A stretch of DNA of 64,000 bases from contig NZ_JQSG02000006.1 in NCBI RefSeq assembly GCF_000754095.2, positions 809,501-873,500 of the forward strand, read 5' to 3'. Of this stretch, positions 4,044 through 26,877 are shown one piece after another. Numbering within the stretch: position 1 is the stretch's first letter; every line of letters begins with the position of its first letter. This DNA is from Acidihalobacter prosperus (lineage in GTDB: Bacteria > Pseudomonadota > Gammaproteobacteria > DSM-5130 > Acidihalobacteraceae). A model generated the notes under the pieces. That model made no database searches. It worked only from the letters and a program-made list of their open reading frames with translations, and was not told the origin of the DNA. The position numbers and the translations under genes were made by a program.

Positions 4044-5213
4044 TCACTTCCCTCCGAGCAGATTCTCGACCAGCGCGACCCACAGCTCGATGCCGTGGGC
4101 GATGGCGGCGTCGTTGAAGTCGTAGGCGCAGCTGTGCAGCGAGGCCTCGTGCTCGGCGTCGCGGATGCCGAGCCAAAGGTAGGCGCCGGGCAGACGCTGG
4201 GTGAAGAAGGAGAAGTCCTCCGCGCCCATCGAGGGGGTGGGCGGGCGGTCGCTTTCGCGCAGGCCGTCCACGCGCGTGGCGGCGCGGCGCAGGTCGGCGA
4301 CCTCGACGGCGTGGTTGAAGGTCACCGGATACTGTGGCTGGTAGTCGAGTTCGGCCTCCATGCCGTAGAGCGCGGCGACGCTCTGCGCGGTTTCTCCCAT
4401 CGCCTCGCGGATGTTTGCCTGGGTGTCCGGCTGCAGGGTGCGCACGGTGCCGGCGATGTGCGCCTCAGCCGGGATCACGTTGTACGCGGTGCCGGCATGG
4501 ATCTGGGTGACGGTGACCACGGCCGGGTCGGTCGGCGCGGCGATGCGCCGCGTGAGCCCGGACAATGCGGCGGTCAGCGCGGCCACGGCGCCGGCGGTGT
4601 CCTGGGTGCGGTGCGGCCAGCCGGCGTGCCCGCCGCGACCGCGCAGACGGATGTCCCAGGCATCGGAGGCGGCCATGCACGGGCCTTCGAGGATGGCGAA
4701 CTCGCCCAGCGGCAGGTCGGGCCAGTTGTGCAGGCCGTAGATGCGTTCGATGCCGAAGTCCGGCCAGCGTGGGTCTTCGAGCATGGCGCGGGCGCCGGCC
4801 TCGCCTTCCTCGGCGGGCTGGAACACGAAGGCCACGGTGCCGGCGAAGTCGCGCCGGGTGGCCAGCGCGCCTGCGGCACCCAGCAGAATCGCGGTGTGGC
4901 CGTCGTGTCCGCAGGCATGCATCACGCCGTCGCGGGTGGAGCGGTGTTCGCGCTGCGCGCATTCGGTCAGCGGCAGGGCGTCCATGTCGGCACGCAGGGC
5001 GATGGTCGGCCCCGGACGTGCGCCCTGTAACAGGGCGACGACGCCGGTGCCGCCGATGCCGAATTGCGGTTCGTAGCCGGCCTCGCGCAAGCGTTCGAGC
5101 ACGTAGGCGGAGGTGTCGAACTCGCGGTAGGCGAGTTCGGGATGGCGGTGCAGGTGACGGCGCCAGCCGATGGCGGCGTCGATGAATTCGGGGTGCGGAT
5201 AGAGCTTGGTCAT
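4044..5213 (-). CDS. M20 family amidohydrolase (hippurate hydrolase-like)
   Basis: Predicted zinc-dependent M20 amidohydrolase/aminoacylase, 389 residues, cytoplasmic. It hydrolyses N-acyl or peptide-like amide bonds in characterised relatives. Metal-binding and catalytic signatures are visible: LRADMDALP (about 73-81), CGHDGH (101-106) and QPAEEG (132-137). The C-terminal SMGAEDFSFF motif is typical of the hippurate/IAA-amino-acid hydrolase subgroup. I start at the ATG encoding MTKLYPHPEF; an in-frame ATG at 5294 would add an unlikely leader. It is the last gene of the long uptake block and directly follows a binding-protein gene, so it may release the end product from an imported conjugate. 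The true substrate is unknown. Confidence 0.9.
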   Translation of the reverse strand: MTKLYPHPEFIDAAIGWRRHLHRHPELAYREFDTSAYVLERLREAGYEPQFGIGGTGVVALLQGARPGPTIALRADMDALPLTECAQREHRSTRDGVMHACGHDGHTAILLGAAGALATRRDFAGTVAFVFQPAEEGEAGARAMLEDPRWPDFGIERIYGLHNWPDLPLGEFAILEGPCMAASDAWDIRLRGRGGHAGWPHRTQDTAGAVAALTAALSGLTRRIAAPTDPAVVTVTQIHAGTAYNVIPAEAHIAGTVRTLQPDTQANIREAMGETAQSVAALYGMEAELDYQPQYPVTFNHAVEVADLRRAATRVDGLRESDRPPTPSMGAEDFSFFTQRLPGAYLWLGIRDAEHEASLHSCAYDFNDAAIAHGIELWVALVENLLGGK

Positions 5214-8327: not shown

Positions 8328-9783
8328 GCCGCACCTCCGAACACCTCGATGCCGCGGAAGCGGCAGGCCGGGGAGGCGTGACCGACGCCGATGCTCTGAT
8401 TGGGTTCGCCCTTGCCGCAGTTGCCGAGGCCGAGCACCTGGAAGGTATCGGCGCTGCCGACGCCGTCGAGGCTGTGCCAGAACGGCAGGGTGCGGCCGCG
8501 ATAGTTGGGATTGCGCACCAGCCCCTGCAGCTCGCCGTCCTCGATCAGCCGGCCCCACTCGCAGCCGAACTGGAATTTCTCGCGGCGCTGGTCGATGGAC
8601 CAGGAGCGGTTCTGGCCGAGCAGCACGCCGTGTTCGACGCCGCCGATCAGCTCGCCCAGCGACTGCTCGCCGGGGGCGATGTTGAGGTTGGCCATGCGGT
8701 CGATGGGCGGTCGCAGGGCGCTGGTCGCGCGCGTGCAGGCGACCGGCTCCAGCCCGGCGCGCGCCGCCGAGCGGGCGCCGCCCAGGGGGCGTTCCAGCAG
8801 GCCGCCGCGGATCAGGTGGGTGCGGCGCGCCGGCAGGCCCTCGTCGTCGCAGGCGTAGCTCGCGAACTCGCCCTGCTCGTCCGGGGCGAACAGTACGTTG
8901 AGCTGCGGCGAGCCGTACTGCAGGGTGCCGAAGTCCTCGGGGCGGACGAAGCTCCAGCCGGCGTAGTTGCGCTCGTCGCCGAGGATGCGGTCGAGCTCCA
9001 GCGGATGGCCGATGCTCTCGTGGATCTGCAGGGTCATCTGCTCGGGCAGCAGGATCAGGTCGCGGGTGCCGGTGGGGCACTCGGGTGCGTCCAGCAGCGC
9101 GAGCGCGTCGCGCGACAGGGCCGCCGCGCGTTCGCGGGTGAAGTCGAGCGCGGCCAGCTGTTCCGGCGTGGCCGGTCCCTGGAAGCTGTGTTCGTGGCTG
9201 CGCCACTGGCTGCCGTCCGCGCCGACCGCCACCGCCCGCAGGCCGGCCTGGCACAGCCGCCAGATCTGTCGCTGCTCGCGCCCGGACTGGTCGAGTAGCA
9301 CGCGCTCGCGGCGCGTGGTTTCGAGCAGCGCGATGCGGCTGTGGATGCGGTCGTCGATGGCCATGGCGATCTCGAGGTCGTGCAGCCATTCGATGCGTTC
9401 GGCGAGCGTCATGTCGACGTGGTCCGCCCAGGGCTCGACGAAGGCCGGCACGGGGTCCGTGGCGTCCGCGGGCAGGCCGGCACCGAGGCGGCGCGCCGGC
9501 AGCACGGCGGCCATGCGGCGCGCCCGTTCGACCGCCTGCGCCAGGCCGTCGGCGCTAAGGTCGGTGGTCGCGCCGTAGCCGAGCGCGCCCTGTTCTTCGA
9601 CGGTGATCAGTACGGCGCGGCGCGCGCTGCGTTCGGGCGGCTGCAGCACGCCGCGGCGTACCAGGCAACCGAGGGTGTCGGTCTGTTCCACCAGGATGCG
9701 CCAGCGCGCGGTGCCGGCGAGCAGGTCGCGGGCGCGGCGGGCGATCGCCTCCAGGTCGTTGCCGTAACGGGTTTGCGGGGTGT

Positions 9784-9787
<4 letters not shown>
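8324..9787 (-). CDS. tldD: TldD family zinc metallopeptidase, catalytic subunit
   Basis: TldD-type metallopeptidase of 487 residues. The catalytic HExxxH is present as HESIGH at about residues 256-261. The conserved C-terminal metal-ligand cysteine is in GNCGKG (cysteine 457). Start is a GTG at 9787 that overlaps the upstream ATPase stop in a GTGA quartet, so expression is coupled to the ABC importer. With TldE it should form a chamber that admits only unfolded or small peptides. The usual housekeeping tldD is a stand-alone gene; here the pair is embedded between dppF-like and binding-protein genes, which suggests a specialised paralogue. Confidence 0.92.
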
Positions 9788-11734
<1,947 letters not shown>

Positions 11735-11738
<4 letters not shown>

Positions 11739-12649
11739 GCGCGTCCCTCCAGTCGGGTGAGCAGGCCCTGCCCGATGAAGTTCATCGCCAGGATGGCGCC
11801 GAAGATCAGGAGGCCGGGAAACAGGATCAGCCACCAGTCGTTGAGGAATACCTGCTGCACGCCCTCGTTGAGCAGCCCGCCCCAGGAGGCGCGCGGCGGC
11901 TGGATGCCGAGGCCGAGGAAGGACAGCCCGGCGAGGCCGAGGATGACGTCGGCGACCATGAAGGTGGTGTTCACGATCAGGATCGGCAGCATCGCGCGCA
12001 GCAGGTGCACGCGGGCGATGTAGAAGGTGCCGGCGCCGAACTGGCGCGCGGCCTGGACGTAGTCGCGCTCGCGATAGGCCAGAGCCTCGTTGCGCACGAT
12101 GCGCGCCAGCCCGGGCCAGGAAACCAGGCCGAGGAGCAGCGTCAGGCTGACCACGTCGAGCGGGATGATCGCGGCGAAGAAGATCATCAGCACCAGCGTG
12201 GGCAGGGCGAGCAGGGCGTCGAGCAGACGCATCAGCGCCTTGTCCAGCCAGCTCGGGCCGAGCGCCGAGAGCATGCCGTAGGCGATGCCGGCGAGCATGG
12301 CGACCAGCGAGCCGAGCACGCCCACGGTGAGGCTGGAACGTCCGCCCGCCATGGCGCGCGCGAGCATGTCTCGGCCGAGGTTGTCGGTGCCGAAGGGGAA
12401 GGCGAGCGAGGGTGGCGAGAGGATGTGCATGGCGTGGATGGTGAACGGGTTCGCGGTGTAGATCAGCGGACCCAGGAAGCTGAACGCCAGCAGCGCCCCG
12501 AACAGGGCGATGCCGGTCCAGGTCATCGGGTGGTGGTAGCGCGCGAGGGCGTCGCGCAGGCCGGCGGGCAGGTGCTCGCCGAGGCGCGGCCAGAGGCCGC
12601 GCACGGCGGCGGACGACCGGGTTTCGGGGGATGACACTTGACTACTCAT
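11735..12649 (-). CDS. Oligopeptide ABC importer permease (DppC type)
   Basis: Inner-membrane permease of 304 residues. An N-terminal cytoplasmic segment is followed by about six transmembrane helices. The EAA-type loop that contacts the ATPases reads EALAYRERDYVQAARQFGAG. The FGTDNLGRDMLARAMAGGRSSL segment is a DppC/OppC family hallmark. It overlaps the upstream DppB-type gene (start 12649 against stop 12642) and the downstream ATPase gene, so all four transporter genes are translationally linked. Confidence 0.95.
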
Positions 12650-13592
12650 AGCGGACTCGGACGTCGAGGATGCTGTTGGCCAGATCCGCGATCAGGTTGC
12701 CGAAGATGGTCAGCAGTCCGATCAGCAGGACGATGGCGGTGAGGGTGGGGTAATCCTGGTTGAGCGCCGACTGCCACAGCAGCCAGCCGAGGCCGGGATA
12801 GTTGAACACGCTTTCCGTGAGCACGCCGCCGACGAAGATGTAGGGCAGCATCATGCCGATCACGGTTACCAGCGGGCGCACGGCGTTGCGCAGCACGTGG
12901 CCGATGGCGATGCGCAGCGGCGGCAGGCCGCGCGAGCGCGCGGTGCGCACGTAGTCCAGGCGGTATTCGTTGCGCGTGGAGTGGCCGAAGTAGCGCGACA
13001 GGCCGGCGGTCAGCGGCAGCGCCAGCGCGGTGCCCGGCAGGATCATGTGGCGCAGGTAGACCAGCGTGCCGCCGCTGCCGTCGCTGGCGGTGATGCCGCC
13101 GGAGGGCAGCCAGCCGAGGTCGATGGCGAAGATCAGGATCAGCATGCCGCCGACGAAGAAGATCGGCATGGCGTAGAAGGTGAGCTGGAAGGCGCCGATC
13201 AGGCGTCCGGCCGCGCGGCGTTCCAGCGCGCCCTGCAGCATGCCGAGCAGCACCGACAGCAGGATCGCGATCAGGGTTGCCGAGGCGTACAGCAGCAGAG
13301 TGTTGCGCAGGTAGCTGCCGAGCAGCGAGGACACCGGGGCGTGCTGGGTGAAGGAATAGCCGAGGTTGCCCTCGAACAGATGCCCCCACCAGGTCAGGTA
13401 TTGCACGTACAGCGGCTTGTCCAGGCCCATCTGGTGGTTCAGCGCGGCCACCGCGGCGGGCGAGGAGCGCATGCCCAGGATGCTGTAGGCGGGGCCGCCG
13501 GGCGTGGCGTGGATCATGAAGAACACCAGGGTGACGAGAATCACGATCGAGGTCACCGAGGTGCCCAGACGTCTTGCGATCAGGCTCCACAT
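12642..13592 (-). CDS. Oligopeptide ABC importer permease (DppB type)
   Basis: Inner-membrane permease of 316 residues. It has the DppB/OppB N-terminus (a first helix, then FFMIHATPGGP), about six helices and the cytoplasmic loop EYRLDYVRTARSRGLPPLRIAIGHVLRNA. An AGGAG site lies 7 bases upstream of the ATG, and the gene begins 10 bases after the preceding binding-protein stop. It forms the translocation pore with the DppC-type subunit. Confidence 0.95.
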   Translation of the reverse strand: MWSLIARRLGTSVTSIVILVTLVFFMIHATPGGPAYSILGMRSSPAAVAALNHQMGLDKPLYVQYLTWWGHLFEGNLGYSFTQHAPVSSLLGSYLRNTLLLYASATLIAILLSVLLGMLQGALERRAAGRLIGAFQLTFYAMPIFFVGGMLILIFAIDLGWLPSGGITASDGSGGTLVYLRHMILPGTALALPLTAGLSRYFGHSTRNEYRLDYVRTARSRGLPPLRIAIGHVLRNAVRPLVTVIGMMLPYIFVGGVLTESVFNYPGLGWLLWQSALNQDYPTLTAIVLLIGLLTIFGNLIADLANSILDVRVRYE

Positions 13593-13602: not shown

Positions 13603-15249
13603 CTACTTCGCCGAAACCCAGAGATACTGCGGATTGAAGCCGCCGAGCGGGGTGAACGCCTTGTCTATGCCGTGGATGTTGCGTGCGTATTTGACGAGCT
13701 TGTAGGAGTAGGGCAGGAAGATCACCGGCTGGGTCTTGATCATGTAGTCCTGGAAGGCGTAGAGCGGCGCCAACCCCGATTTCCTGGTGACCTCGTCGAT
13801 CAGCTTGTCCAGCTTGGGATCGCTGTAGTGATAGTTGTTCAGCGCTCCGCCGGTCTGGAAGATGGTGCCGGCGCTGGGGTAGGTGGACAGACTCCAGCCC
13901 AGGTAGACCGCCTGCCACTGCTTGTTGCTGGGCTCGGTATATTCGGCGATGACGCTGTTGAAGGGTTTTTCGCGCAGGCGCAGCTTGATGCCGACCTGCG
14001 CAAGCATGCCGGCGATCAGGGTCGGGCCGCGGGTACGGCCAGCCTGCACGTATAGGGTGAAGGCGAGCTTGTGGCCGTCCTTCTCGCGGATTCCGCCGGG
14101 GCCGCGCTTCCAGCCGGCCTCGTCGAGCAGCCGGTCGGCGAGCGCGGGGTCGTAGACCTTGGAGTCCAGCATCTTGCGCGCGTGGGGCGAGAGGAAGGTG
14201 GGCGGATCGACCGGCACCGGGCCGTAGTCGCGCTGACCCATGCCGAAATCTTCCAGCTTGACCAGCAGCGGCTGGTCGATGGCATGCATCATGGCCTGAC
14301 GCACGCGCACGTCGTGGATGAAGGTGAGATTCGGGTTGGAATAATTGAAGCCCATGTAGTTGAAGCCCCACAACCCCTTGATCTCATAGGTGCCGAGGGC
14401 GGCGAGCTGGGCGCGGGCCGGATACAGCGAGCGCGGCAGGGTACCGATCTGGATGGCGCCGGTGCGCAGCGCGGCGAATACGGCCTGCGGGGTGTTCAGG
14501 AAGCGCAGCACCAGACGGTCGATGTAGGGCGGGTTGGGGCCGGTGTATTTGGGGTTGGGCACGAAGCTGACGTAGCGTCCCTGCACGAAGGACTGCAGCT
14601 TGAACGGCCCATCGACGACCTGGAAGAAGCTCGGGTCGACCATGTGGTTGAACATGGTCTTGACGCTGTAGTGTTCCCAGGTCTGCTTGGGTAAGGGCAT
14701 GAGCAGGCCGAGACCGTCGAGCTCGAACCAGTCCGCATTGACCGGGCGCTTGAGGGTGATGCGGAAGCGATAGGGTCCGAGCACCTCGAAGGATTTGACC
14801 AGGGTCGGGATGCCGCCGGTGCCGTAGTTGGGAAACTTCGGCCCGAGTTTTTCGATCATGTGGTAATCGTAGGCCACGTCCTCGGCGGTGACCGGCTGGC
14901 CGTCCGACCAGCGATAGCGCTTGTGCAGCGTGACCGTGTACACGGTCCGGTCGGCCGAGACCTGGATGCCGCTGGCGACGGAGCGCGTGTAGTCGATCTT
15001 GAGGTGCCGGTCGATGTACAGCAGGCCGAGATACATCAGGCCGGCGGCCTGGGCGTTGTACAGCGATGAGGACAGCAGCGGATTGAGACCGTTCACGGCC
15101 GCCGGCGGCGCGACGCCGACGCCGGGGACGGTGACCACCGTGCCGCCGTGCCGGGGCGTGGGGTCTGCCGCATGGGCGTCGTGGCCCGCGAGGGCGGCGA
15201 TCAGAAAGCCCGCCGCGAACAGGGATTCGAGGAGTCGTCGTGAATGCAT
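13603..15249 (-). CDS. Family 5 periplasmic substrate-binding protein
   Basis: SBP_bac_5 protein of 548 residues, exported to the periplasm by a signal peptide (LFAAGFLIAALAGHDAHA, cleavage after AHA). Typical segments are visible: HKRYRWSDGQPVTAEDVAYDY and VRVRQAMMHAIDQPLLV. It sits immediately upstream of the permease genes, the usual position for the cognate binding protein of a Dpp/Opp importer. It is the best candidate for the main partner of this ABC system; three further binding proteins in the block may share it. Confidence 0.93.
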   Translation of the reverse strand: MHSRRLLESLFAAGFLIAALAGHDAHAADPTPRHGGTVVTVPGVGVAPPAAVNGLNPLLSSSLYNAQAAGLMYLGLLYIDRHLKIDYTRSVASGIQVSADRTVYTVTLHKRYRWSDGQPVTAEDVAYDYHMIEKLGPKFPNYGTGGIPTLVKSFEVLGPYRFRITLKRPVNADWFELDGLGLLMPLPKQTWEHYSVKTMFNHMVDPSFFQVVDGPFKLQSFVQGRYVSFVPNPKYTGPNPPYIDRLVLRFLNTPQAVFAALRTGAIQIGTLPRSLYPARAQLAALGTYEIKGLWGFNYMGFNYSNPNLTFIHDVRVRQAMMHAIDQPLLVKLEDFGMGQRDYGPVPVDPPTFLSPHARKMLDSKVYDPALADRLLDEAGWKRGPGGIREKDGHKLAFTLYVQAGRTRGPTLIAGMLAQVGIKLRLREKPFNSVIAEYTEPSNKQWQAVYLGWSLSTYPSAGTIFQTGGALNNYHYSDPKLDKLIDEVTRKSGLAPLYAFQDYMIKTQPVIFLPYSYKLVKYARNIHGIDKAFTPLGGFNPQYLWVSAK

Positions 15250-15361: not shown

Positions 15362-17779
15362 TTAGGAGAACTTCGCCGAAAGCCCCAGACTGATGTAGCG
15401 GGGCATGCCGGGGTAGGCCGCATCATATGGCGTGCCCACGGCAGCGAAGTCGTATTCCTTGTAGATGTTGTAGTAGTGGGTGTAGTACTGCTTGTCGAAC
15501 AGGTTGTCGATGTTCAGGGTGAGCTTGATCTGCTTGAGATAGCTCATGTGCACCGGCAGCTTCTGCGAGGCCTTGAGATCGAAGATCCAGAACCCGCCGA
15601 AGGTGTTGGGCGAGGATACCGTGGCATCCGCCAGCCCGATTCCCTGGTAGGTACGGGTTTCGTTCGGCCCCAGGGTGTAGACGTAGTGCATGCGGCCGGT
15701 GTAGTGCGTCGACAGTTTGACGTAGGTGCCGTTCTTGTCGTACTTGATGCCGAGGTTGCCCGTCCAGGCCGGCACGAAGGGCACGTGGTCGCCGGCGAAG
15801 GCATAGCCGTATTGCCCCTCGAACGGCGTCATCAACGCCCAGAAGCCGTTGACGTAGTGCGCGTCGGTGTACGAGGTATTGGCGGTCAGCTCCACGGCGG
15901 GTGTCAACTTGTAGGCGCCGCTGAGTTCCGCACCCTGCATGCGCTCCTTGCCGACGTTCTCATACTGCGCAGCGCCCGTCGTGTAGTTGATGTAGAAGGA
16001 GAACATGTCCTTCTGTTCCTGCAGGTATGCATCGAAATTGACGTAAGCGCGCGGAGTATCGTAGCGGATGCCGGCCTCGTACATGTTGACGATCTCCGGT
16101 GCCGGTGCGACACCCTGTCCAGTGATGCCTTGTACCAAGTCGTTGACTGGCGAGTAGCGGGCACCCTTGCCGTAACTGGCGTAGGCGATTAGATCCTTAC
16201 GTAGATCGTAGGCGACGCCAAGATAGGGCGTGCCGACGGTGTACCAGCTGTCCAGTTTGACCGCTGGGGCTGTGCCGGTGGCATCGTAAATGCTCCATGG
16301 CTGATAGGCGACGGTATTGACACCCGAGTAGGTATAGCCGGGTTCGATGTGCAGCTTGCCATTCATCAGGGTGATCTTGTCCTGCAGGTAGCCGCTGTAC
16401 ACGCTGCGCAGGTCGTAGGCGCTATTGTCGCCCAGAGAGTTATAACCATTGATCTGCGGCATCTGAAGATTGCCGTAGACATATTGGCTGCCCCAGCCGC
16501 GTTCGCGGACTCCCATCAGGCCAAGCTTGATCGCATTGTGCGGCAGCAGCAGCAAGGTCGATCCCTTGAGGCCGAAGGTGTTGTTGGCGTTGTTGCCCAC
16601 GACGGCGGCTTCGCCGGCCTGTGCCGTGCCGAAGACGGCAGCCGGGTTGTAGGTGAAGTGGTTCGGGTTGTAGATGCCGGTACCCGGTCCCATGGGACCA
16701 TAACCAAAATAGGGTGCCTGAAAATTGACCTGATACGGGTAGGACAGCGTGATGTACTTCGGGTTGGTCCAGGAATTGAAATACCCGGTCCGGTAGATAT
16801 CGAAGATGTCACCCTTGAACATCAGATGGGGATTGATATAGGTGCGGTCGCCGAGAATCATCGCGTAGTATTTGTTGATCTGCTCGGAGAAGGTATCGGA
16901 GGCCGGCGGGTTGTAAAGCTGGCCGTATTCCTGCAGCCAGGCCGTCGGCGTCGGCGCGGTCTGCACCACCGAACGTCCCCGGCTCGCCAGCATCACCGCC
17001 GAGAGCTGCGACATGCCCTCGTCATAGGGCTTGAGCGCGCTGAGCATGAAGTTGTCGTAGGTGGAGGGCGTGTGCTGGATATAGCCGTCGCTGCTGGTGT
17101 GAGCGTAGTAGAGCAGCGCCCTGGCGGCATCGGGGCCGCTGCCCATGGAGCCGGTGTTGAGATCGGTCGAGAGTTCGTTGGTGCCGAAGGAGCCGATCTT
17201 GGTGGCGAATTCCGCATACGGCTTGCGCGTCGGCTTGCGGGTGGTGTAGGCGATGGTGCCGCCGACGGTCGCAAAACCTTCTCGGCTGGGCGGCGCAACC
17301 CCGGGGTAGATGTTGATCGAGTCCAGTTCCCCGTGCGTAATCACGTTGCCGACATTGAAGCTCAGGAACGAGCCTTGGCCGCCGTAGAGGATGTCCTGCA
17401 ATGGCACGCCGTCCAGCGTCTGCGCGAGCTGGCTCATGCGCACGCCACGCACCACGAGCACCGGCGTGTTGGGCCCGATATTCTGCTGATATTCGTTGAC
17501 GGACGGGGTTTCGTTCAGCAGCGAATAAATCGAGCTTGAATTGCTCGCATGCTTGATGCTGTCCTGCGGCACCGAATTGACCACCGACGGAATATTGCGC
17601 TCGGCGGCAATGAGTTTTTCGTATTCCTTGGTGACCTTTTTAATCTTGATGGGCTTTGTGTCGGCGCTTGTGGTTTTCCCGGTGTCGGTCGAATCTGCGG
17701 CATGTGCATGGCCCGGCAGCATGATGCCCAGCGCACCCAGCAGGGCTATCGCCGATGCGTGAGAGGAAATGGATTTCAT
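15362..17779 (-). CDS. TonB-dependent outer-membrane receptor
   Basis: Outer-membrane receptor of 805 residues. A signal peptide (cleavage near AHA-A, residue 27) is followed by a candidate TonB box (PIKIKKV, about 42-48). A plug domain (TPVLVVRGVRMSQLAQTLDGVPLQD) and a long beta-barrel end in KFS rather than the usual terminal aromatic residue. No FecA-like signalling extension is seen. It lies between tonB (upstream) and the binding protein/ABC importer (downstream) on the same strand, so it probably feeds that importer. Ligand unknown; the gene setting argues for a peptide-like or metal-chelate compound. Confidence 0.92.
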   Translation of the reverse strand: MKSISSHASAIALLGALGIMLPGHAHAADSTDTGKTTSADTKPIKIKKVTKEYEKLIAAERNIPSVVNSVPQDSIKHASNSSSIYSLLNETPSVNEYQQNIGPNTPVLVVRGVRMSQLAQTLDGVPLQDILYGGQGSFLSFNVGNVITHGELDSINIYPGVAPPSREGFATVGGTIAYTTRKPTRKPYAEFATKIGSFGTNELSTDLNTGSMGSGPDAARALLYYAHTSSDGYIQHTPSTYDNFMLSALKPYDEGMSQLSAVMLASRGRSVVQTAPTPTAWLQEYGQLYNPPASDTFSEQINKYYAMILGDRTYINPHLMFKGDIFDIYRTGYFNSWTNPKYITLSYPYQVNFQAPYFGYGPMGPGTGIYNPNHFTYNPAAVFGTAQAGEAAVVGNNANNTFGLKGSTLLLLPHNAIKLGLMGVRERGWGSQYVYGNLQMPQINGYNSLGDNSAYDLRSVYSGYLQDKITLMNGKLHIEPGYTYSGVNTVAYQPWSIYDATGTAPAVKLDSWYTVGTPYLGVAYDLRKDLIAYASYGKGARYSPVNDLVQGITGQGVAPAPEIVNMYEAGIRYDTPRAYVNFDAYLQEQKDMFSFYINYTTGAAQYENVGKERMQGAELSGAYKLTPAVELTANTSYTDAHYVNGFWALMTPFEGQYGYAFAGDHVPFVPAWTGNLGIKYDKNGTYVKLSTHYTGRMHYVYTLGPNETRTYQGIGLADATVSSPNTFGGFWIFDLKASQKLPVHMSYLKQIKLTLNIDNLFDKQYYTHYYNIYKEYDFAAVGTPYDAAYPGMPRYISLGLSAKFS

Positions 17780-17840: not shown

Positions 17841-17934
17841 GCCCGGCTTTGTGTTTCATCCTCAATGCGTCGGTTGGTTTTGCACCGATCTTTTAGAGGG
17901 TGTGTCAAACCATTCAGAAGGGATCTCCGTATTG

Positions 17935-17951: not shown

Positions 17952-17969
17952 TGTGCCAGCCATCCTCTG

Positions 17970-18770
17970 TCAGCCGCTGGCGTTGACTTGCACGACGACC
18001 TCGAAGGTACGGTGTGCTTTGCCGAAGGCCTTGGGGAACGGTGGGTAGCTGAGCTGTCCGACGGTCTTGAGCGCGTCGTGGCGGATGAGGGGATTGGCGC
18101 CGCCGGAGATGATGTGCACGTCCTGCGCGGCGCCGCCCTGGGGGCCGAGCACGAAGCGCACCCGCACGCTGCCGGACAGGCCGAGCTGGCGCACCATCTC
18201 GCCGACCTGCACGTTGTTCTGGATCAGCACGTGCAGGGCCTGGCTGTAGGCGGCGATCGCCGACGGGCTGGGCCCGGACACGGGCGCCACCTTCGGTGCC
18301 GGCAGCGGCGACTTGACCGCCTGCGGCGCCGGGTGCGGCACCACGTGCGGATGCGGCGCGGGCTTGGGCTTGGGCACCGGCTTGGGTTTGTGATGCACGA
18401 TCGGCTTGGGCCTGTGATGCACCGGCCGCGGCTTGTGGATCACGTGATGCACGGGCTTGGGCTTGTGGTGCACCACCGGCTTGGGCTTGGGCTTCTTCGG
18501 GATCACGATCTGCGGCTTGGGGATCGGCGGCGGCGGCACGATCCTGGGCTGCACCACCGGCTGCGGCGGCGGAGGCGGCGGCAGCTTGACGAACTGCACC
18601 GTGGTCACCTGCTGCGGCTTCGCCGGCGGCGGCGGCGCCGGCGCGTGGTGCCACGGCCACAGCAGCAGCACCGCGATCAGCACCTCGAACGCGAGCGCCA
18701 GCACGAACGCCCGCGGCAGGCCCAGCCGCGGCGGCGACCACGGCCCGAGCGACGGCGCCAGCGCGCTCAT
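17970..18770 (-). CDS. tonB: TonB energy-transducing protein with His/Pro-rich linker
   Basis: TonB protein of 266 residues. It has an N-terminal membrane anchor (about 22-42), a long Pro-Lys periplasmic linker and a C-terminal TonB domain ending in FGKAHRTFEVVVQVNASG. The linker (about residues 55-165) is unusually rich in histidine, with repeated HH pairs inside KPKP-type repeats (PVVHHKPKPVHH, PVHHRPKPIVHH). It transmits ExbB/ExbD proton-motive energy to outer-membrane receptors. The start overlaps the exbD stop (ATGA at 18767-18770), so exbB-exbD-tonB form one unit dedicated to the neighbouring receptors. Confidence 0.93.
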   Translation of the reverse strand: MSALAPSLGPWSPPRLGLPRAFVLALAFEVLIAVLLLWPWHHAPAPPPPAKPQQVTTVQFVKLPPPPPPQPVVQPRIVPPPPIPKPQIVIPKKPKPKPVVHHKPKPVHHVIHKPRPVHHRPKPIVHHKPKPVPKPKPAPHPHVVPHPAPQAVKSPLPAPKVAPVSGPSPSAIAAYSQALHVLIQNNVQVGEMVRQLGLSGSVRVRFVLGPQGGAAQDVHIISGGANPLIRHDALKTVGQLSYPPFPKAFGKAHRTFEVVVQVNASG

Positions 18771-19231
18771 GGCGCCGCGCTACCCGTCGGCGGCGCGGCG
18801 GCCGGGGCGGTCTTGCCGGCGCCCGCCGGAGATCCCGCGCGCGTGGCCAGGCCGATCTTGCTGATCCCGAGCTCGCGCACCGCGTTCATCACCCCGGTCA
18901 GCTCCTTCACCGTGGCCTTGCCGTCGCTGGCGATGATCACGCTCACCGTGGCCTTGTCCTTGAGCGCCGACAGCGCCTGCTTGAGCGCGTCCAGGGTCAC
19001 CGTGTGGTCCTGGTAGCGCACCGCGCCCTTGTCGGTCACGCCGACGATCACGCTCTTGTGCGGCAGCTTGGTCGCCGTGCTCGCGCTCGGCAGGTGCAGC
19101 TTCACCCCGGTGTTGGGGATCATGTGCAGCACCATCAGCACGAAGAACACCAGCAGGAACATCATGATGTCGATCATCGGGATGATGTTCAGCCGCGGTT
19201 CCTGATGCTCGAAGTAGCGGGAGCGATCCAT
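18767..19231 (-). CDS. exbD: ExbD proton-channel subunit
   Basis: ExbD/TolR family protein of 154 residues. A short cytoplasmic N-terminus is followed by a single transmembrane helix with the proton-carrying aspartate in IPMIDIMMFLLVFFVLMVL, then a periplasmic domain. A Gly/Ala/Pro-rich C-terminal tail extends beyond the usual length of the domain. It works with ExbB to energise TonB. The gene lies one base after exbB on the same strand. Confidence 0.94.
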   Translation of the reverse strand: MDRSRYFEHQEPRLNIIPMIDIMMFLLVFFVLMVLHMIPNTGVKLHLPSASTATKLPHKSVIVGVTDKGAVRYQDHTVTLDALKQALSALKDKATVSVIIASDGKATVKELTGVMNAVRELGISKIGLATRAGSPAGAGKTAPAAAPPTGSAAP

Positions 19232-19232: not shown

Positions 19233-19940
19233 TCACACGCCCTCGGCCTTGCGCGTGTCGCCCAGCCCCAGGTGCGCGCCCAGCGCGCTGCGCGTCTCGA
19301 AGTGTTCCGCGCCGGCCTCGCCGTGCGCCTTGACGCCCTCGCCGTGCAGGCGGTTGATCAGCAGCAGGCGGATCAGGTCGAGCTGGTGCATCGCAAGACG
19401 CAGGCGCTTGTTCAGCAGGTTCAGGAACAGCACCGAGATGATCGCGATGAAAAGACCCATCCCGGTCGACACCAGCGCGTCGGCGATGCCCCCGGTGGCC
19501 TTGACCGCAGCCCCGGAGCTGCCCAGCACGTTGAAGGTGTCGATCATGCCGATGATGGTGCCGAACAGGCCCAGCAGCGGACCTAAGGTCGCCGCCGTGT
19601 CCAGCAGCCACAGGTACTGGTCCAGCCGCGGCATCGACCACAGCACTTCCTCGTCGAGGTGCTGCGACAGTGCGTCCGGCGTCTCGGCCTTGGACGCCAC
19701 CGCCTGCAGGATCAGGCGCCCCTGCAGGGTGTGCGAATAATCCTCGCCCAGCGCCTTGAGACCGCGCACGTCGCGGTAGCCCAGCGCCTTGAGCGATTCC
19801 TCCACCCGACCGCCCGCACCCAGCACCCGGTAGTAAAACCACAGCCGGTCAAAAATCACCGCCACCGCCACCAGCAACAGCAGCGCCATGATGATCGGCA
19901 AACCGCCCGACAGCTTGATCAGATGCGTGATGAATTCCAT
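19233..19940 (-). CDS. exbB: ExbB proton-channel subunit
   Basis: ExbB/TolQ/MotA family inner-membrane protein of 235 residues. It has one N-terminal helix, a large cytoplasmic loop and the paired helices LLDTAATLGPLLGLFGTIIGMIDTF and ISTGMGLFIA-type region characteristic of the family. An AGGAG site lies 7 bases before the ATG at 19940. It is the first gene of the exbB-exbD-tonB-receptor run and follows a 374-base regulatory gap, so it probably has its own promoter. Confidence 0.94.
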   Translation of the reverse strand: MEFITHLIKLSGGLPIIMALLLLVAVAVIFDRLWFYYRVLGAGGRVEESLKALGYRDVRGLKALGEDYSHTLQGRLILQAVASKAETPDALSQHLDEEVLWSMPRLDQYLWLLDTAATLGPLLGLFGTIIGMIDTFNVLGSSGAAVKATGGIADALVSTGMGLFIAIISVLFLNLLNKRLRLAMHQLDLIRLLLINRLHGEGVKAHGEAGAEHFETRSALGAHLGLGDTRKAEGV

Positions 19941-20314: not shown

Positions 20315-22006
20315 TCAGCCTGCTGAAGCGCAGGCCGGGGAGGATTTAAGGTCGATCGCCTGAGGGGCGATGTAGGCCGTGGGATTGAGGTATTCGCGCA
20401 TATTGCCGAGGCAGCCGCTGGATTTGACCAGGTAGCCGGGCACAGGCAGGAACAGCACCGGCAACTGCTTCGCCAGCAAGGCTTCGTAGTGCCACAAGGC
20501 TTCGCGGCCGTGCGGCTGTGTGGAGCCGTTGATGGCGGCATCGAGCGCGGCATTCGAGTACTGCCCGAAATTGGCGCCGCCGCCGGTATTGAACAGACCG
20601 TCGCCGGAAGGATAGAAGTCCGGGGCATAGGACCACAGCAGCATGGCCGTTTCCCAGTGTCCGTTGGGTTGAACGGTGGCGAGCAAGGTGGCCTGTGGCA
20701 TGCGCTTGAGGTGCACCAAGACGCCGAGCTTCTGCCAGGAGGCCTTGAGCATGTCGGCCTCCTCGGTCTGCGCGCGGCTGCCGGTGAGATAGAGCAGGGT
20801 GAATTCGAGGCGTTTGCCGTCCTTGGTGCGCACGCCGTCATGCATGGTCCAGCCGTCGCTTGCGAGCAGGCGCGCGGCTTTTGCGGGGTCGTATGCTTGG
20901 TTCGGATGCGAGTCCAGGGCCTTCATCGCCGGCGAGAGATAGGTGTCGGGTACGGGCGGAACGGCGGTGAAGCTGGCCGCGCCGAGGCCGTGGAACACCA
21001 CGTCGATGATGGCCTGCTGCGGAATGGCCATCTGCAGCGCCTGGCGAACCTTTTCGTCGCGCATGAAGGCGATCTTCGGGTTCTTGAAGTTGAGCCAGAT
21101 CATGCGGAATTCATAGGGCAGGAAACCGGGTTTCCCGGGTACGCTTTCGAAGGTATGCAGGTGGGCGACGAGGTGCTGGGCGCTGTACAGCGGCGTCGGC
21201 ACCTCGCCGATCTGCAGCTCGCCGGTCTTGAGCGCGGAGAACTGGGTGGTCCAGTCCGGGAAGAAGCGCAGTTCGAAGCGTTTCACCGCCGGCGAATCCG
21301 GATAATCGGGATTCGCGGAGTAGCGCGCATAGCGCCCGGAGACGAAACTGTCGAGCCGGTAGGGTCCGTCGGAGACGCGCATGAGTTTCATGTCGGTCTC
21401 GTGGTTACGGAAATAGGTGTTGCTGTGATGTCCCCAGGCCTTGGCGGGCAAGGCATAGAACTGGGAGAGTCCGTTGAGGGTGAACCAGTGTTCGCTCACC
21501 GGGTGCTTGAGCGTGAAGCGCACGGTGTCCGCCGAAACGGCGGCGACCTGCTTGATGAGTTCGGGTACGCCGCCGACGCCATAAAGGCCGTAGCCGTTTC
21601 CTTGCTGTTCGATCAGCTTCCAGGTGTAGACCACATCGGCGGCGGTGACCGGGGTGCCGTCGGTCCAGCGGCGCGGCTTGAGCTTGACGGTCACGACGGT
21701 GCGCTGGGGGTTGTAGTGCACCGATTCGGCGAGGCCGAGCTTCCAGTCGACGGTGATCTCGGGCGAGGGCCAGATCAGCGGCGTGTAGAGGATGCTGTAG
21801 GCCTGCATGTCGGTGTTCGACACGTCGTTGTACAGCGGCGAGAACGAGGTGACGGTCTGCGGCGCCCCGAAGCCGCCGACATTGGGCGTGGTGACGACGA
21901 CGTCGGTGCTCTTGGCCATCGTCGTGCCGGTGCTGGCCAATGCGCCGAGACAGGCGAGAGTCGAGAGTGTACGGATGAAGCGTGGGGTCTTGCGGCATGC
22001 TGGCAT
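20315..22006 (-). CDS. Family 5 periplasmic substrate-binding protein (tandem copy A)
   Basis: SBP_bac_5 protein of 563 residues with a signal peptide. The ATG at 22006 is preceded by a textbook AAGGAGG site. Family segments include KLKPRRWTDGTPVTAADVVYTW and VRQALQMAIPQQAIID. It is a close paralogue of the adjacent gene at 22066-23745, with long identical stretches, showing a tandem duplication. Its paralogues feed Dpp/Opp-type permeases, and the only permease set in this block is at 11735-13592. It may give the importer a second specificity. Confidence 0.93.
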   Translation of the reverse strand: MPACRKTPRFIRTLSTLACLGALASTGTTMAKSTDVVVTTPNVGGFGAPQTVTSFSPLYNDVSNTDMQAYSILYTPLIWPSPEITVDWKLGLAESVHYNPQRTVVTVKLKPRRWTDGTPVTAADVVYTWKLIEQQGNGYGLYGVGGVPELIKQVAAVSADTVRFTLKHPVSEHWFTLNGLSQFYALPAKAWGHHSNTYFRNHETDMKLMRVSDGPYRLDSFVSGRYARYSANPDYPDSPAVKRFELRFFPDWTTQFSALKTGELQIGEVPTPLYSAQHLVAHLHTFESVPGKPGFLPYEFRMIWLNFKNPKIAFMRDEKVRQALQMAIPQQAIIDVVFHGLGAASFTAVPPVPDTYLSPAMKALDSHPNQAYDPAKAARLLASDGWTMHDGVRTKDGKRLEFTLLYLTGSRAQTEEADMLKASWQKLGVLVHLKRMPQATLLATVQPNGHWETAMLLWSYAPDFYPSGDGLFNTGGGANFGQYSNAALDAAINGSTQPHGREALWHYEALLAKQLPVLFLPVPGYLVKSSGCLGNMREYLNPTAYIAPQAIDLKSSPACASAG

Positions 22007-22065: not shown

Positions 22066-23745
22066 TCAGCTGTGTTGCATGCAGCCGCCGGGGATCTTCC
22101 AGCGTAGTGCCTGCGGCGCGATGTAGGCCGCGGGGTTGAGGTAGTCGCGCATTCCGCTCAGGCAGGCGTCGTGCCTGACCTGATAGCCGGGAACGGGCAG
22201 AAACAGCACCGGCAGTTGCTTTGCCAGCAACGCTTCATAGTGCCATAGCGCCTCGCGGCCGTGCGGCTGGATGGAGGCGTTGATGGCGGTGTCCAGTGCG
22301 GCGTCGTGAAAGCCGCTGGCGAGCACGCCGCTGGCGTTGAACAGGCCGTCGCCGGACGGGTACATATTGGGTGCATAGGCCCAGAGCAGCATGGCCGCCT
22401 CGGATTTTCCGCTGCGCACGGTGGCGAGCAGGGTGGCCTGTGGCATGCGCTTGAGATGCACCACGACGCCGAGCTTTTGCCAGGAGGCCTTGAGCATGTC
22501 GGCCTCCTCGGTCTGCGCGCGGCTGCCGGTGAGATAGAGCAGAGTGAATTCGAGGCGTTTGCCGTCCTTGGCGCGCACGCCATCGTGCACCTTCCATCCA
22601 TCCTGATCGAGCAGACGCACGGCCTTGGCCGGGTCGTACTCGCGGTTCGGGTGCTCGTCCATATCCTTCATCGACGGCGAAAGATAGGTGTCGGGCACGG
22701 GCGGAACGGCGGTGAAGCTCGCCGCGCCAAGGCCGTGGAACACCACGTCGATGATGGCCTGCTGCGGGATCGTCAACTGCAGTGCCTGGCGAACCTTTTC
22801 GTCGCGCATGAAGGCGATCTTCGGATTGCGGAAATTCAGCCGGATCATGCGGAATTCGTAGGGATAGAAACCTGCCTTGCCGGGAACGTTGGCGTAGCTC
22901 GGCAGGTGCGCGACGAGTCGCCGGGCGCTGTACAGCGGGGTGGGTATTTCGCCGATCTGCAGCTCGCCGGTCTTGAGCGCGGAGAACTGGGTGGTCCAGT
23001 CGGTGAAGAAGCGCAACTCGAAATGACGAACCGGCAGTTTGCCCGGGTAATACGGGTTGACGGAGAAGCGTGCGTAGCGTCCCGGGACGAAGCGGTCTAG
23101 GCGATAGGGCCCGTCGGAGACGCGCATGAGCTGCATGTCGGTCTCGTGGTTACGGAAGTAGGTGTTGCTGTGTTGTCCCCAGGCCTTGGCGGGCAGCGGA
23201 TAGAGCTGGGACAGGGCGTTGAGGGTGAACCAGTGTTCGCTCACCGGGTGCTTGAGCGTGAAGCGCACCGTGTCGGCCGAAATGGTCTGTGCCCGCCGGA
23301 TGACGTAGGGCATGCCACCGACGCCGTAAAGTCCATAGGATCTGCCCTGCTGTTCGATCAGCTTCCAGGTGTAGACCACATCGGCGGCGGTGACCGGGGT
23401 GCCGTCGGTCCAGCGGCGCGGCTTGAGCTTGACGGTCACGACGGTGCGCTGGGGGTTGTAGTGCACCGATTCGGCGAGGCCGAGCTTCCAGTCGACGGTG
23501 ATCTCGGGCGAGGGCCAGATCAGCGGCGTGTAGATGACGCTGTAGGCCTGCATGTCGGTGTTCGAATCGTCGTTGTAGACGGGTGAGAACGAGGTGACGG
23601 TCTGTGGCGCCCCGAAACCGCCCACGTTGGGCGCCGTGGCGACGGTGGCCGGGCGGCCCTGGGCCAGCACGGCTCCGGGCAGGAGCAGCAGACACGTCAG
23701 CAGGCGTCGCGTCAGGCCGCCCCAGGAGGAAAGCGGTGCGCTCAT
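22066..23745 (-). CDS. Family 5 periplasmic substrate-binding protein (tandem copy B)
   Basis: SBP_bac_5 protein of 559 residues, with signal peptide LLTCLLLLPGAVLA cleaved before Q. Start at 23745 overlaps the stop of the upstream amidotransferase-like gene in ATGA, with a GGAG site at a fair distance. It is highly similar to copy A along its whole length. The C-terminal half differs most (for example LFNASGVLASGFHDAALDTAI against LFNTGGGANFGQYSNAALDAAI), which suggests diverging ligand choice after duplication. Confidence 0.93.
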   Translation of the reverse strand: MSAPLSSWGGLTRRLLTCLLLLPGAVLAQGRPATVATAPNVGGFGAPQTVTSFSPVYNDDSNTDMQAYSVIYTPLIWPSPEITVDWKLGLAESVHYNPQRTVVTVKLKPRRWTDGTPVTAADVVYTWKLIEQQGRSYGLYGVGGMPYVIRRAQTISADTVRFTLKHPVSEHWFTLNALSQLYPLPAKAWGQHSNTYFRNHETDMQLMRVSDGPYRLDRFVPGRYARFSVNPYYPGKLPVRHFELRFFTDWTTQFSALKTGELQIGEIPTPLYSARRLVAHLPSYANVPGKAGFYPYEFRMIRLNFRNPKIAFMRDEKVRQALQLTIPQQAIIDVVFHGLGAASFTAVPPVPDTYLSPSMKDMDEHPNREYDPAKAVRLLDQDGWKVHDGVRAKDGKRLEFTLLYLTGSRAQTEEADMLKASWQKLGVVVHLKRMPQATLLATVRSGKSEAAMLLWAYAPNMYPSGDGLFNASGVLASGFHDAALDTAINASIQPHGREALWHYEALLAKQLPVLFLPVPGYQVRHDACLSGMRDYLNPAAYIAPQALRWKIPGGCMQHS

Positions 23746-24500
23746 GTCTGGCTCCGCTGGCGCCGCGCCGGCTCGGCGCACAGCCCGAGGAAGGCGTCGA
23801 ACAGGCGAGCCTGAATCGCGGCATCCTCACCGCCGAGTTCCGGATGCCACTGGATGGCAATGGCCCGCAGTCCGTTGACGGATTCGACCGCCTCGATCAC
23901 GCCGTCGTCCGCCCGTGCACAGACGCGCAGGCCCTCGCCCAGGCGGTCCACGCACTGATGATGATTGGACATCACCGAGAGGCGCGCGCGGCCGACATGG
24001 GTGTACAGGTGGCTGTCCTCGTCGATGGCCACGGTGTGAGCGATCGGGCCGCGCGGATGGTCGCGGTGCGGCGTGTCGCAGAGGCTTAAGTCTTCCGGTT
24101 GTTCGAGGTGCTGGCACAGGGTGCCGCCGAGCGCGACGTTGAATACCTGCATGCCTCGGCAGATGGCGAAGACCGGTATGTCGCGCTCGATGCACTGGCG
24201 TGTCAAGGCGAACTCGAAGGCGTCGCGTGCCGGGTCGATGTACACGGTCGCTGCGTGACAGGGCGCGTCGTAGCGCGCCGGCTCGACATCGCCGCCGCCG
24301 GTCAGGATCAGACCGTCGAGGGTGGCGACGAGCGCGGCGAGCGGATAGTCCGGTGCCGGCGGCAACAGGATCGGGAGGCCGCCGGCGCGGATCACCTGAT
24401 CGACGTAGTGATGCGGCAGCCAGAAGCGGTCGTTGTTTTCGGACCCGAAGCAGAGTCCGAAGGTGGTAATGCCGACCGTGGGACTGTTCACGTGGCGCAT
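23742..24500 (-). CDS. Gamma-glutamyl-gamma-aminobutyrate hydrolase-like (class I GATase, peptidase C26)
   Basis: PuuD-like hydrolase of 252 residues, cytoplasmic. The class I glutamine-amidotransferase triad is intact: nucleophile C114 in FAICRGMQ, H219 and E221 in QWHPE. GGGDVEP near residue 70 is a family feature. Relatives cleave gamma-glutamyl amide bonds, for example gamma-glutamyl-GABA. It lies between a TonB-dependent receptor and a binding-protein gene and is translationally coupled to the latter, so it likely acts on the imported ligand rather than in putrescine breakdown. No other puu genes are present. Confidence 0.88.
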   Translation of the reverse strand: MRHVNSPTVGITTFGLCFGSENNDRFWLPHHYVDQVIRAGGLPILLPPAPDYPLAALVATLDGLILTGGGDVEPARYDAPCHAATVYIDPARDAFEFALTRQCIERDIPVFAICRGMQVFNVALGGTLCQHLEQPEDLSLCDTPHRDHPRGPIAHTVAIDEDSHLYTHVGRARLSVMSNHHQCVDRLGEGLRVCARADDGVIEAVESVNGLRAIAIQWHPELGGEDAAIQARLFDAFLGLCAEPARRQRSQT

Positions 24501-24546: not shown

Positions 24547-26877
24547 TCAGAAATACGCCGAAACCGAGCCGTACACGCCCAGCGGCGCGCCCGGCTGCGC
24601 CAGGATGTCGCCCGCGCTGCCCGGACCGTATGCGCTGCCCGAGGAGATATAGCCCATGGTGTTGTATTTCACGTTGAGCAGGTTCTCGACGACAAGGGCG
24701 AGCTTGACCATCTTGAGTCCGCCCACGTAGGGATTGAAGGCGGTGGTCGAATCGGTGAAATGGAGATTCACCAGGTTGACCTGCGAGGCCGGCAACAGGG
24801 TGCTGGTCGGCGCCGAGGTGATTTCGGATGCGAGGTAGGTCGCCGACTGATAGCGGTCGCTCAGGGTCAGGTCGTAGTACGAATTGGCGCGGTACCAGCC
24901 ATAGCCGGCATTGAACCCCAGGTTGTATTTCGGCGTGCCGGTCATGGGCACGTCGTTCAGCGGGTCGCCGGCGGCGTTGAAGGTCCACTCGCGCGCATCC
25001 TGAATGCTGTCGCTGGTGTACACGCTCAGCCCGGCGGGCTGCTTGTAGCCCAACAGGAAATTCACGCCCTGGATGGTCTCGGAGGCCGGTTCGACGATGA
25101 CCGTCTGCGTGGCGGACTGCGTGTAGGGAATGGTGAGATCCTTGACGTGGGTATGGAACAGCGCGGCCTGTGCGAACCACTTCCCGCTGTGATATTTCAC
25201 GCCGCCGATATAGCTGACGACCTCGGCCGGTTTGGACGGCGGCACCACGGGTTCGGATGCGCCGACGCCGTAGGAATTGTCCGTCTGGGTCTGGTAATTA
25301 TTGGCCGCGGTGGCGAACAGATGCGTCGAGTGCGTCAGGCCGGCGTTGAGTCCCAGGCTGAAATTCGGCTCGGTGAAGCTGCCGGATGCCCCCGGAATGT
25401 TGCTGACGTACGCGGTCGTGTTGCCCGGTGCGATGATCTGGAAGTACTGCTGGGCCTGATTGACGACCTTGACGTCGTAGTGCTCGATACCGACGCCCGG
25501 CGTAATGGTCAGGCGCGGCATCGGGTGGATCGCGTCCTGCAGGAAGACGTTCGAACCGGTCCACTGGGTGGTGTAGTTGCGGTAGAAATCAGGCGTCGAA
25601 CTGAAGATGTCCTGACCGTTGGCGATGGCTTGGAAGCTGTTGTAGCCGATCAGCTGGGCCTGGCTGTTCATCTGCATGTAGTACGCGCCAAGCGTGACGT
25701 CGTTGCCGGGCAACATCACATGCAGCGCCGAGCGATTGCCGAAATAGCGGCTGTGCGGATCGTAGTTGAAGGCGGTCGGGCCGCTGGTGCGCGTGGTGTT
25801 GTAGTTGAAGATGGCGCGCTTGGAACGATGGCCGTTCTTGTACCAGGTGGTATCCGTGAAGCGTACGTTGCTCGACAGGTCGGCGGTCAGCTTGGTGAAG
25901 CCGAGGATGGCCGCATACCACTGGCGCTTGCTCCACAGCGCGGTGCTTGGGGTGTAGTACCAGCCGGAGGTCTGCTGGCTCAGCGTTTCGCCGGGTACGT
26001 TGTAACCGCCCACGTTCACGCCGGGGACCGGATAGACCGGCAGATCGTGCGCGCGGTGTTCGAGCGCTCCGTAGTAATAAAGCCCGGCGGTAAAACTGCC
26101 GGCCGAGAAGTGCTTGCGCGTCTCGGCGAAGATTGCCGATGCCTCGGTGCGTCCGATCGGCGTGGGTCCGGTGCGGATGCCGTCGGTCCCGGTGTAACCC
26201 ATGGACAGCACGGTATCCCAGCCGTCGATCGAGCCGGATTGCAGATTGGTCGACAGGGATTGCGAATTGAACGAGCCGCCTCCTGCCTCGATTTCAGCGG
26301 AGGCTTTGTCGCTGGGCGCGAGGGGCATGAAATTCACCGTTCCGCCGACACCGTCGTACCAGTGGTCGGCTACAGCTCCCGGGCCCTGGGTGACCTTGAT
26401 CGCGGAGAACATGCTCGCGATCGGCAGTTCGTTGCTCTCGAAGCCGTGATAGCCGGCGGTGGGGTTGTTCAGCGGGATGCCGTCGAACAGGATCTGCAGG
26501 CCGTTGATTTCAGGCGTACCGGCCGCGTCGAAACCAACCTGGGTGCCGTTGATGCGGATCTGGTATCGGCTGGCGCCGGAGTACGAACCGACAGGGTGCG
26601 CCTGGAACCCGGGCACGGCGTTGGTCAGCGCGGCGGCGGCACTGCCGCCGGGTGCGGTGAGCTTGCTCAGGGTTTTTTTGCTCACGGCCACGGAATTCTG
26701 CGCGGACCCAAGCTCGACCGCATGCGTTTTTCCATGTTTGCTCGTGTACGCGGCCTTGACCTTGGCGATATCGATCGGCCGATGGGTGTCCGCAGCCGCG
26801 GTTTGCAGGCAGGCGCCAAGTGCCGTTGAAAAAATAATGGCTGCAGAATATTTATTGATGCCTGCCATGGCGCCCAT
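24547..26877 (-). CDS. TonB-dependent outer-membrane receptor
   Basis: Outer-membrane receptor of 776 residues, with a signal peptide (cleavage near TAA-AD, residue 29) and a candidate TonB box (PIDIAKV, about 34-40) resembling that of the other receptor. A plug (RYQIRINGTQVGFD, DGIPLNNPTAGYHGFESNE) and a barrel end in the usual terminal phenylalanine (SVSAYF). GGAG precedes the ATG at 26877. It is the first gene of the upstream half of the block, followed by the gamma-glutamyl hydrolase and the tandem binding proteins. Confidence 0.93.
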   Translation of the reverse strand: MGAMAGINKYSAAIIFSTALGACLQTAAADTHRPIDIAKVKAAYTSKHGKTHAVELGSAQNSVAVSKKTLSKLTAPGGSAAAALTNAVPGFQAHPVGSYSGASRYQIRINGTQVGFDAAGTPEINGLQILFDGIPLNNPTAGYHGFESNELPIASMFSAIKVTQGPGAVADHWYDGVGGTVNFMPLAPSDKASAEIEAGGGSFNSQSLSTNLQSGSIDGWDTVLSMGYTGTDGIRTGPTPIGRTEASAIFAETRKHFSAGSFTAGLYYYGALEHRAHDLPVYPVPGVNVGGYNVPGETLSQQTSGWYYTPSTALWSKRQWYAAILGFTKLTADLSSNVRFTDTTWYKNGHRSKRAIFNYNTTRTSGPTAFNYDPHSRYFGNRSALHVMLPGNDVTLGAYYMQMNSQAQLIGYNSFQAIANGQDIFSSTPDFYRNYTTQWTGSNVFLQDAIHPMPRLTITPGVGIEHYDVKVVNQAQQYFQIIAPGNTTAYVSNIPGASGSFTEPNFSLGLNAGLTHSTHLFATAANNYQTQTDNSYGVGASEPVVPPSKPAEVVSYIGGVKYHSGKWFAQAALFHTHVKDLTIPYTQSATQTVIVEPASETIQGVNFLLGYKQPAGLSVYTSDSIQDAREWTFNAAGDPLNDVPMTGTPKYNLGFNAGYGWYRANSYYDLTLSDRYQSATYLASEITSAPTSTLLPASQVNLVNLHFTDSTTAFNPYVGGLKMVKLALVVENLLNVKYNTMGYISSGSAYGPGSAGDILAQPGAPLGVYGSVSAYF

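Follow-up and report, generated by a model that had tools for sequence, protein, structure and literature searches.

We describe a gene for a peptidase family C26 hydrolase in a 64,000-nucleotide stretch of Acidihalobacter prosperus DNA (NZ_JQSG02000006.1, positions 809,501 to 873,500; the whole stretch is called the window, and its positions count from its first letter). The gene lies within a 16-gene island (5317-26877, all on the minus strand), whose other genes look like a complete peptide route from outside the cell to the cytoplasm, plus digestion. We suggest, with confidence that stands about midway between doubt and acceptance, that the window C26 is a cytosolic gamma-glutamyl hydrolase forming part of this putative peptide import-and-digestion island. 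The enzyme type is common, and its placement inside such an import block is unusual. Proteins of this family often carry the database record name gamma-glutamyl-gamma-aminobutyrate hydrolase (PuuD), and hence are read as enzymes of putrescine catabolism. For the window C26 the PuuD label would mislead, since a polyamine locus elsewhere in the genome has a C26 to itself.

The C26 gene and its placement

The C26 open reading frame (ORF) begins with an ATG at 24500 and ends at 23742. Its product matches Peptidase_C26 (PF07722) at 211.3 bits against a gathering cut-off of 20.5 (E 1.9e-62, Pfam), with class-I glutamine amidotransferase as a second, weaker Pfam match. The catalytic Cys-His-Glu expected of the family is intact as C114, H219 and E221, the residues named in an earlier interpretation made from the letters alone (the sequence-only reading). 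All three are invariant in a nine-row alignment of the window C26, E. coli PuuD and seven further C26 proteins, as are R115, S178, H180, Q182, D199 and E203; a 23-row alignment shows no variation at H219 or E221 and almost none at C114. An AlphaFold2 model from 23 input sequences (predicted local distance difference test 85.9, predicted template-modelling score 0.87; weak at residues 17-24) gave, as top solved structures in Foldseek, Lin1909 (3fij), PuuD (6vtv) and SpuA with a glutamyl-thioester (7d50). Lin1909, a Listeria protein that its PDB title labels uncharacterized, is the closest solved relative by both sequence and fold. We regard the window C26 as probably a gamma-glutamyl hydrolase, predicted to be cytosolic.

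The gene starts 46 bp from the end of a TonB-dependent receptor gene (24547), and its stop overlaps the start of a substrate-binding protein (SBP) gene (23745) by 4 bases, ATGA. The coordinates agree with the sequence-only reading, which had placed the gene between a TonB receptor and a binding-protein gene with such an overlap, and co-expression within the unit may be expected. The absence of puuA, puuB and puuC nearby also held up: among 38 window ORFs scanned with Pfam, a selection covering the island and its near flanks, with few ORFs past 39 kb, there was no glutamine synthetase (GS), DAO oxidase or aldehyde dehydrogenase. The arrangement is not a chance one, since a second genome of the genus (G002) has a 98% identical C26 in the same gene order.

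A further C26 stands beside a homologous transporter in a genome of a sister genus (G004). The permeases there are 76 and 78% identical to those of the island, and the cluster has four SBPs along with a dipeptidase for D-Ala-D-Ala (235.3 bits to NF007557, cut-off 176); the C26 gene, divergent from the permeases, overlaps an SBP gene by 4 bases. This C26 and the window C26 are not orthologues. In two trees the G004 protein groups with a C26 of the window's own genome (G000) that is linked to a Liv-type transporter (support 100/99 and 100/100), so that two C26 lineages lie beside one transporter type. The pattern of a C26 beside this transporter is not general. Six class genomes had a match to the island's second binding protein, and the locus in G210 is cut by contig ends.

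The island as a putative peptide route

The genes of the island, in order and followed by one flanking gene, are:

24547..26877, minus: TonB-dependent receptor 1, 776 aa, the gene that opens the unit (PF00593, PF07715)
23742..24500, minus: C26 (class-I amidotransferase-fold) hydrolase, 252 aa (Pfam, catalytic residues C114-H219-E221, AlphaFold2 model, Foldseek)
22066..23745, minus: SBP1, peptide-type (SBP_bac_5), start overlapping the C26 stop (Pfam)
20315..22004, minus: SBP2 (SBP_bac_5), start inferred, longest ORF beginning at 22057 (Pfam)
19233..19940, minus: ExbB-type proton channel (Pfam)
18767..19231, minus: ExbD (Pfam)
17970..18770, minus: TonB (Pfam)
15362..17779, minus: TonB-dependent receptor 2, 805 aa, siderophore-receptor-like by a sub-threshold match
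13603..15249, minus: SBP3 (SBP_bac_5) (Pfam)
12642..13592, minus: peptide ATP-binding cassette (ABC) transporter permease B
11735..12649, minus: peptide ABC transporter permease C, start at 12649 or 12604
10770..11738, minus: ABC ATPase D (Dpp/Opp type)
9784..10773, minus: ABC ATPase F (Dpp/Opp type)
8324..9787, minus: TldD-type metallopeptidase subunit, HESIGH at residue 256, 4-base overlap with ATPase F (Pfam, motif)
7011..8327, minus: TldE-type subunit, no HExxxH, 4-base overlap with TldD (Pfam, motif)
5317..6954, minus: SBP4, Opp4A-like by a sub-threshold match, last gene of the island
4044..5213, minus: M20 amidohydrolase, a flank outside the island (retained in G001, where the site is empty)

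Overlaps of 4 bases join C26 to SBP1, ExbD to TonB, permease C to ATPase D, ATPase D to ATPase F, ATPase F to TldD, and TldD to TldE. The transporter has the parts of an Opp/Dpp-type importer, namely SBP_bac_5 proteins, two permeases and two ATPases with oligo_HPY. SBP2 is 80% identical to SBP1, and its closest solved relative is the oligopeptide-binding AppA (1xoc). The tld genes are paired, with HExxxH confined to TldD and Pfam in agreement, as in E. coli TldD/TldE, which is described as cleaving unfolded peptides (PMC5810440); unlike the E. coli genes, those of the island overlap peptide ABC transporter genes. Because the unit includes a TonB-ExbBD system, an ABC transporter and a TldD/TldE peptidase of its own, its ligand is probably a peptide. 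No transporter part reached the cut-off of an NCBIfam equivalog model (SBP3 was not in that scan), receptor 1 had no PDB match, and there are no tRNAs at the island ends, the two tRNAs of the window both lying at about 61 kb. A promoter and terminator scan of the island (3 against 1.8 expected and 11 against 9.7 expected) was not used.

In G002 all parts of the island are present in the same order, at 86-100% identity by protein. In another genome of the genus, G001, the M20 flank (87% identical) and a TauE-type gene lie about 650 bp apart, with no island gene matches between them. Present in G002 and absent from the same site in G001, the segment 5317-26877 was acquired along one branch, unless the other branch lost it. 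The M20 peptidase had been a candidate for the last gene of the island and was dropped, since it is retained at the empty site. A search for similar islands by way of TldD gave matches at E <= 1e-70 in 27 of 369 class genomes; the stretches examined in 18 of the 25 genomes beyond G000 and G002 had no adjoining permeases or binding proteins (0/18). A literature search at the level of titles and abstract openings returned no description of such an arrangement.

Divergence from G002 varies along the island. Positions 15000-18500, receptor 2 with its flanks, are 79-92% identical, and most of the rest is 93-99% (SBP2 87-92%). The synonymous divergence (dS) of receptor 2 is 0.70 against 0.02-0.19 in the other measured parts, as if this gene had been replaced or were diversifying. 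The lowest dS values among the parts measured fall within 22066-24500 (C26 0.019, SBP1 0.025), and the adjacent receptor 1 has 0.11. In the comparison of nonsynonymous with synonymous divergence (dN/dS), the SBP2 row spans 136 codons only and was disregarded.

PuuD, the polyamine locus and the closest relatives

The sequence-only reading called the enzyme PuuD-like. The Pfam family and the fold are those of PuuD, and the catalytic triad and the predicted gamma-glutamyl chemistry are shared with both PuuD of E. coli and SpuA of P. aeruginosa, but the label is too close. In two trees, a seven-row clade of E. coli PuuD, the polyamine-locus C26 and relatives (support 100/100) leaves the window C26 outside, and we conclude from these sequence comparisons that it falls outside the PuuD/SpuA clade and is not PuuD. 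It is 34% identical to E. coli PuuD, lacks adjoining puu or spu genes, and scores 121.6 bits against the PuuD equivalog (NF008471), under the cut-off of 266. That score alone decides little, since the polyamine-locus C26 misses the cut-off too (229.4 bits). At 12 positions separating seven PuuD-type from seven cassette-type rows (the latter, from the ethanolamine cassettes described below, including G003_C24 and G124, beside which no cassette was recognised, and leaving out G104), the window C26 agrees with PuuD at 0, with the cassette type at 5 and with neither at 7. The first tree, from which 19 of 61 rows had been removed by hand (mostly near-duplicates; the similar rows L109, L110 and L112 were all removed), put the window C26 among cassette-linked, Liv-linked and cyanobacterial rows, in a clade of 14 rows (96/88). 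The second, with more rows (31 picked from 68), dissolves this grouping into a polytomy.

The polyamine locus itself (L028, G000:C6:1011000-1030999) lies 187 kb from the window C26. It is of the Puu/Spu type, and its gene names rest on model match and gene order: a PuuC-like dehydrogenase (694.8 bits, cut-off 850), AguB, a DAO oxidoreductase, two GS-like genes flanking its C26 on either side, a PRK07480-subfamily aminotransferase, and PotA-, PotB- and PotD-like genes. The sequence-only reading saw no link between the window gene and a putrescine pathway and proposed a genome search for puu genes, in which a pathway lacking puuD would have told against it; the locus found carries its own C26, so that no such pathway appeared. 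That the window C26 is a PuuD displaced from the putrescine pathway is therefore extremely unlikely. The shared Pfam family and fold (Foldseek template-modelling score 0.83 to PuuD) speak for this idea, and a tree with the window C26 as sister to the PuuD clade is not rejected, but genes of the Puu/Spu type stand together in L028 with a C26 that belongs to the PuuD/SpuA clade. A PuuD of a scattered putrescine pathway was rejected, as the polyamine locus has its own C26. The genome holds another C26, the Liv-linked one (L027 4878-10562, G000:C3:427000-446999), which is divergent from a Liv-type amino-acid or amide transporter; G001 has the same arrangement.

In a sample of 369 class genomes, matches to the window C26 at E <= 1e-55 were confined to G000, G002, G003 and G018, the last two 46-47% identical, and in 398 phylum genomes G000 alone matched at E <= 1e-60. 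The eight best matches outside the genus are G003:C24, G018 (46% identical), G344 (44%), G124, G004:3409k (46%), G104 (42%), G244 (45%) and G249 (40%). Six of the eight have genes for a GS-like ligase and for an aldehyde dehydrogenase as neighbours. In all but one of the six, an iron alcohol dehydrogenase lies there too, along with either an ethanolamine-type permease or a tripartite ATP-independent periplasmic (TRAP) transporter, the exception being G104, on a contig of 7.4 kb. G003:C24 and G124 show no cassette genes. By gene content, the five neighbourhoods are full ethanolamine gamma-glutamylation cassettes; the permease of the G004 cassette, at 353.3 bits, falls short of an ethanolamine-permease cut-off (381.75). 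Phaeobacter sp. MED193 has a gene set of the same type, with a TRAP transporter, in which one protein (MED193_10026, UniProt A3XG12) is named gamma-glutamylglycine amidohydrolase (GGAH); the study presents proteomics and shows that the TRAP protein binds ethanolamine (PMC10132767). The C26 proteins of the ethanolamine cassettes are the closest extra-genus relatives of the window C26 and share with it a gamma-glutamyl dipeptide as predicted substrate. Unlike the cassettes, the island contains neither a ligase nor an aldehyde or alcohol dehydrogenase, and it lacks an ethanolamine transporter; the tree gives the window C26 no firm place among the cassette enzymes.

A scan of genome contigs with the window C26 gave 40 loci at 29-45% identity, several of them short, none with island-type binding proteins or permeases at E <= 1e-6. 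Plasmid searches with the window C26 (177 records) and with a cassette C26 (158 records, 12 of which were inspected) gave only matches below 60% identity.

The proposed gamma-glutamyl bond and the ligand

When the ligase of the G004 cassette was searched against the own genome (E <= 1e-20), the GS-like genes that matched were three: the pair in the polyamine locus and one more, probably GlnA, with no further ligase match; an ethanolamine permease had no match in the genome. The lack of a private ligase fits a bond that arrives preformed, and together with the contexts of the relatives, which point to gamma-glutamyl amides, it makes a preformed gamma-glutamyl bond in the imported ligand the best reading. 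The sequence-only reading had proposed a gamma-glutamyl or similar amide in the imported ligand, and to that extent it stands; that the ligand bears the bond is something we infer, and the unit is larger, at 16 genes, than had been supposed. More broadly, the bond likely arrives in the ligand or comes from endogenous gamma-glutamyl compounds.

The second of these sources is the basis of an alternative in which the C26 hydrolyses an endogenous or otherwise imported gamma-glutamyl compound, for example in glutathione breakdown or from gamma-glutamyltransferase products, and its position in the island is incidental. Gamma-glutamyltransferases can produce gamma-glutamyl dipeptides, and the own genome has three genes for them; C26 genes elsewhere adjoin other genes, including the Liv-type transporter of the own genome. 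The ATGA overlap with SBP1, the gene order kept in G002 and the second C26 beside the homologous transporter in G004 all argue the other way, and we consider this alternative unlikely.

In the model of a C26 serving the import route, two TonB receptors, powered by the TonB-ExbB-ExbD of the island, would take peptide-like ligands inward across the outer membrane, and four family-5 binding proteins would pass them on to a single ABC transporter of the Dpp/Opp type. Once in the cytosol, the peptides would be trimmed by TldD/TldE, and the C26 would cut a gamma-glutamyl (or similar) amide resistant to ordinary peptidases, through a thioester on Cys114 with His219 and Glu221, to give glutamate and an amine or amino acid. 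A stronger form of the model seems to us unlikely: that the island is a self-contained outer-membrane-to-cytosol route for one specific class of gamma-glutamyl-bearing peptides, such as glutathione- or phytochelatin-like metal-binding peptides or peptide natural products, entering through private TonB receptors, with C26 and TldDE jointly breaking isopeptide and peptide bonds.

Two further alternatives concern other ligands. Murein peptides carry a gamma-D-Glu bond, and the D-Ala-D-Ala dipeptidase in the G004 transporter cluster is consistent with murein peptide import, in which the C26 would cut the gamma-D-glutamyl bond in place of MpaA- or YkfC-type enzymes. The window island has no VanX-type dipeptidase, however, the single PF01427 match of the own genome lying in a separate ddpX-like operon, and the C26 enzymes that are known act on L-gamma-glutamyl compounds; we hold the murein alternative to be decidedly unlikely. 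The ddpX-ddpABCDF system for D-Ala-D-Ala uptake resembles the island in having a Dpp/Opp-type transporter adjoining a dedicated hydrolase, and DdpX occurs in the G004 cluster, whereas the window island lacks DdpX and has TonB receptors, four binding proteins, C26 and TldDE. The ddpX-like operon of the own genome (L156 8484-14591, G000:C6:367000-384999) comprises a dipeptidase, two ATPases, two permeases and an SBP.

Import of a metal-peptide or siderophore, from which the hydrolases free the cargo, is more improbable still. Receptor 2 matches a TonB-siderophore family at 107.3 bits, under the cut-off of 223.5, and weakly matches the CntO plug (E 0.0004), and the binding proteins match NikA and CntA below threshold. 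All these receptor and binder matches are sub-threshold, however, receptor 1 adds none from the PDB, and the closest solved relative of SBP2 binds oligopeptides.

The weakest link in the model of a C26 that serves peptide import is the ligand, and several observations weigh against it. G122 and G237 have the homologous transporter with no C26 in the stretches examined (the G237 contig begins 2.1 kb before the permease), and in G003 the orthologue of the G004 C26 stands apart from the transporter. Within the island, 374 bp between SBP2 and ExbB split off receptor 1, C26, SBP1 and SBP2, so a single transcript is not certain. The dN/dS of C26 against G002 is 0.51 from few changes, and purifying selection on it is thus weakly shown. 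The window C26 has a long branch in the tree, and the approximately unbiased test does not reject its grouping with the PuuD clade (p 0.311, 0.38 log units worse), the cassette type (p 0.212) or the Liv-linked type (p 0.149); the PuuD cut-off, missed by the polyamine-locus C26 as well, is weak evidence by itself. As to the chemistry borrowed from the cassettes, the portion of the Phaeobacter article consulted does not state that GGAH is a C26 protein (PMC10132767), and in Streptomyces a different enzyme family has been proposed for the GGAH step (PMC6529630).

If the proposed role is true, gamma-glutamyl bonds can be among what TonB receptors import, and the four binding proteins and three hydrolase subunits offer a handle for finding the ligand, probably of one ligand class. 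Elsewhere in the window, at 31376-32730, a MerR-type regulator gene precedes one whose product combines an ArsR-type helix-turn-helix with an AHSA1 domain.

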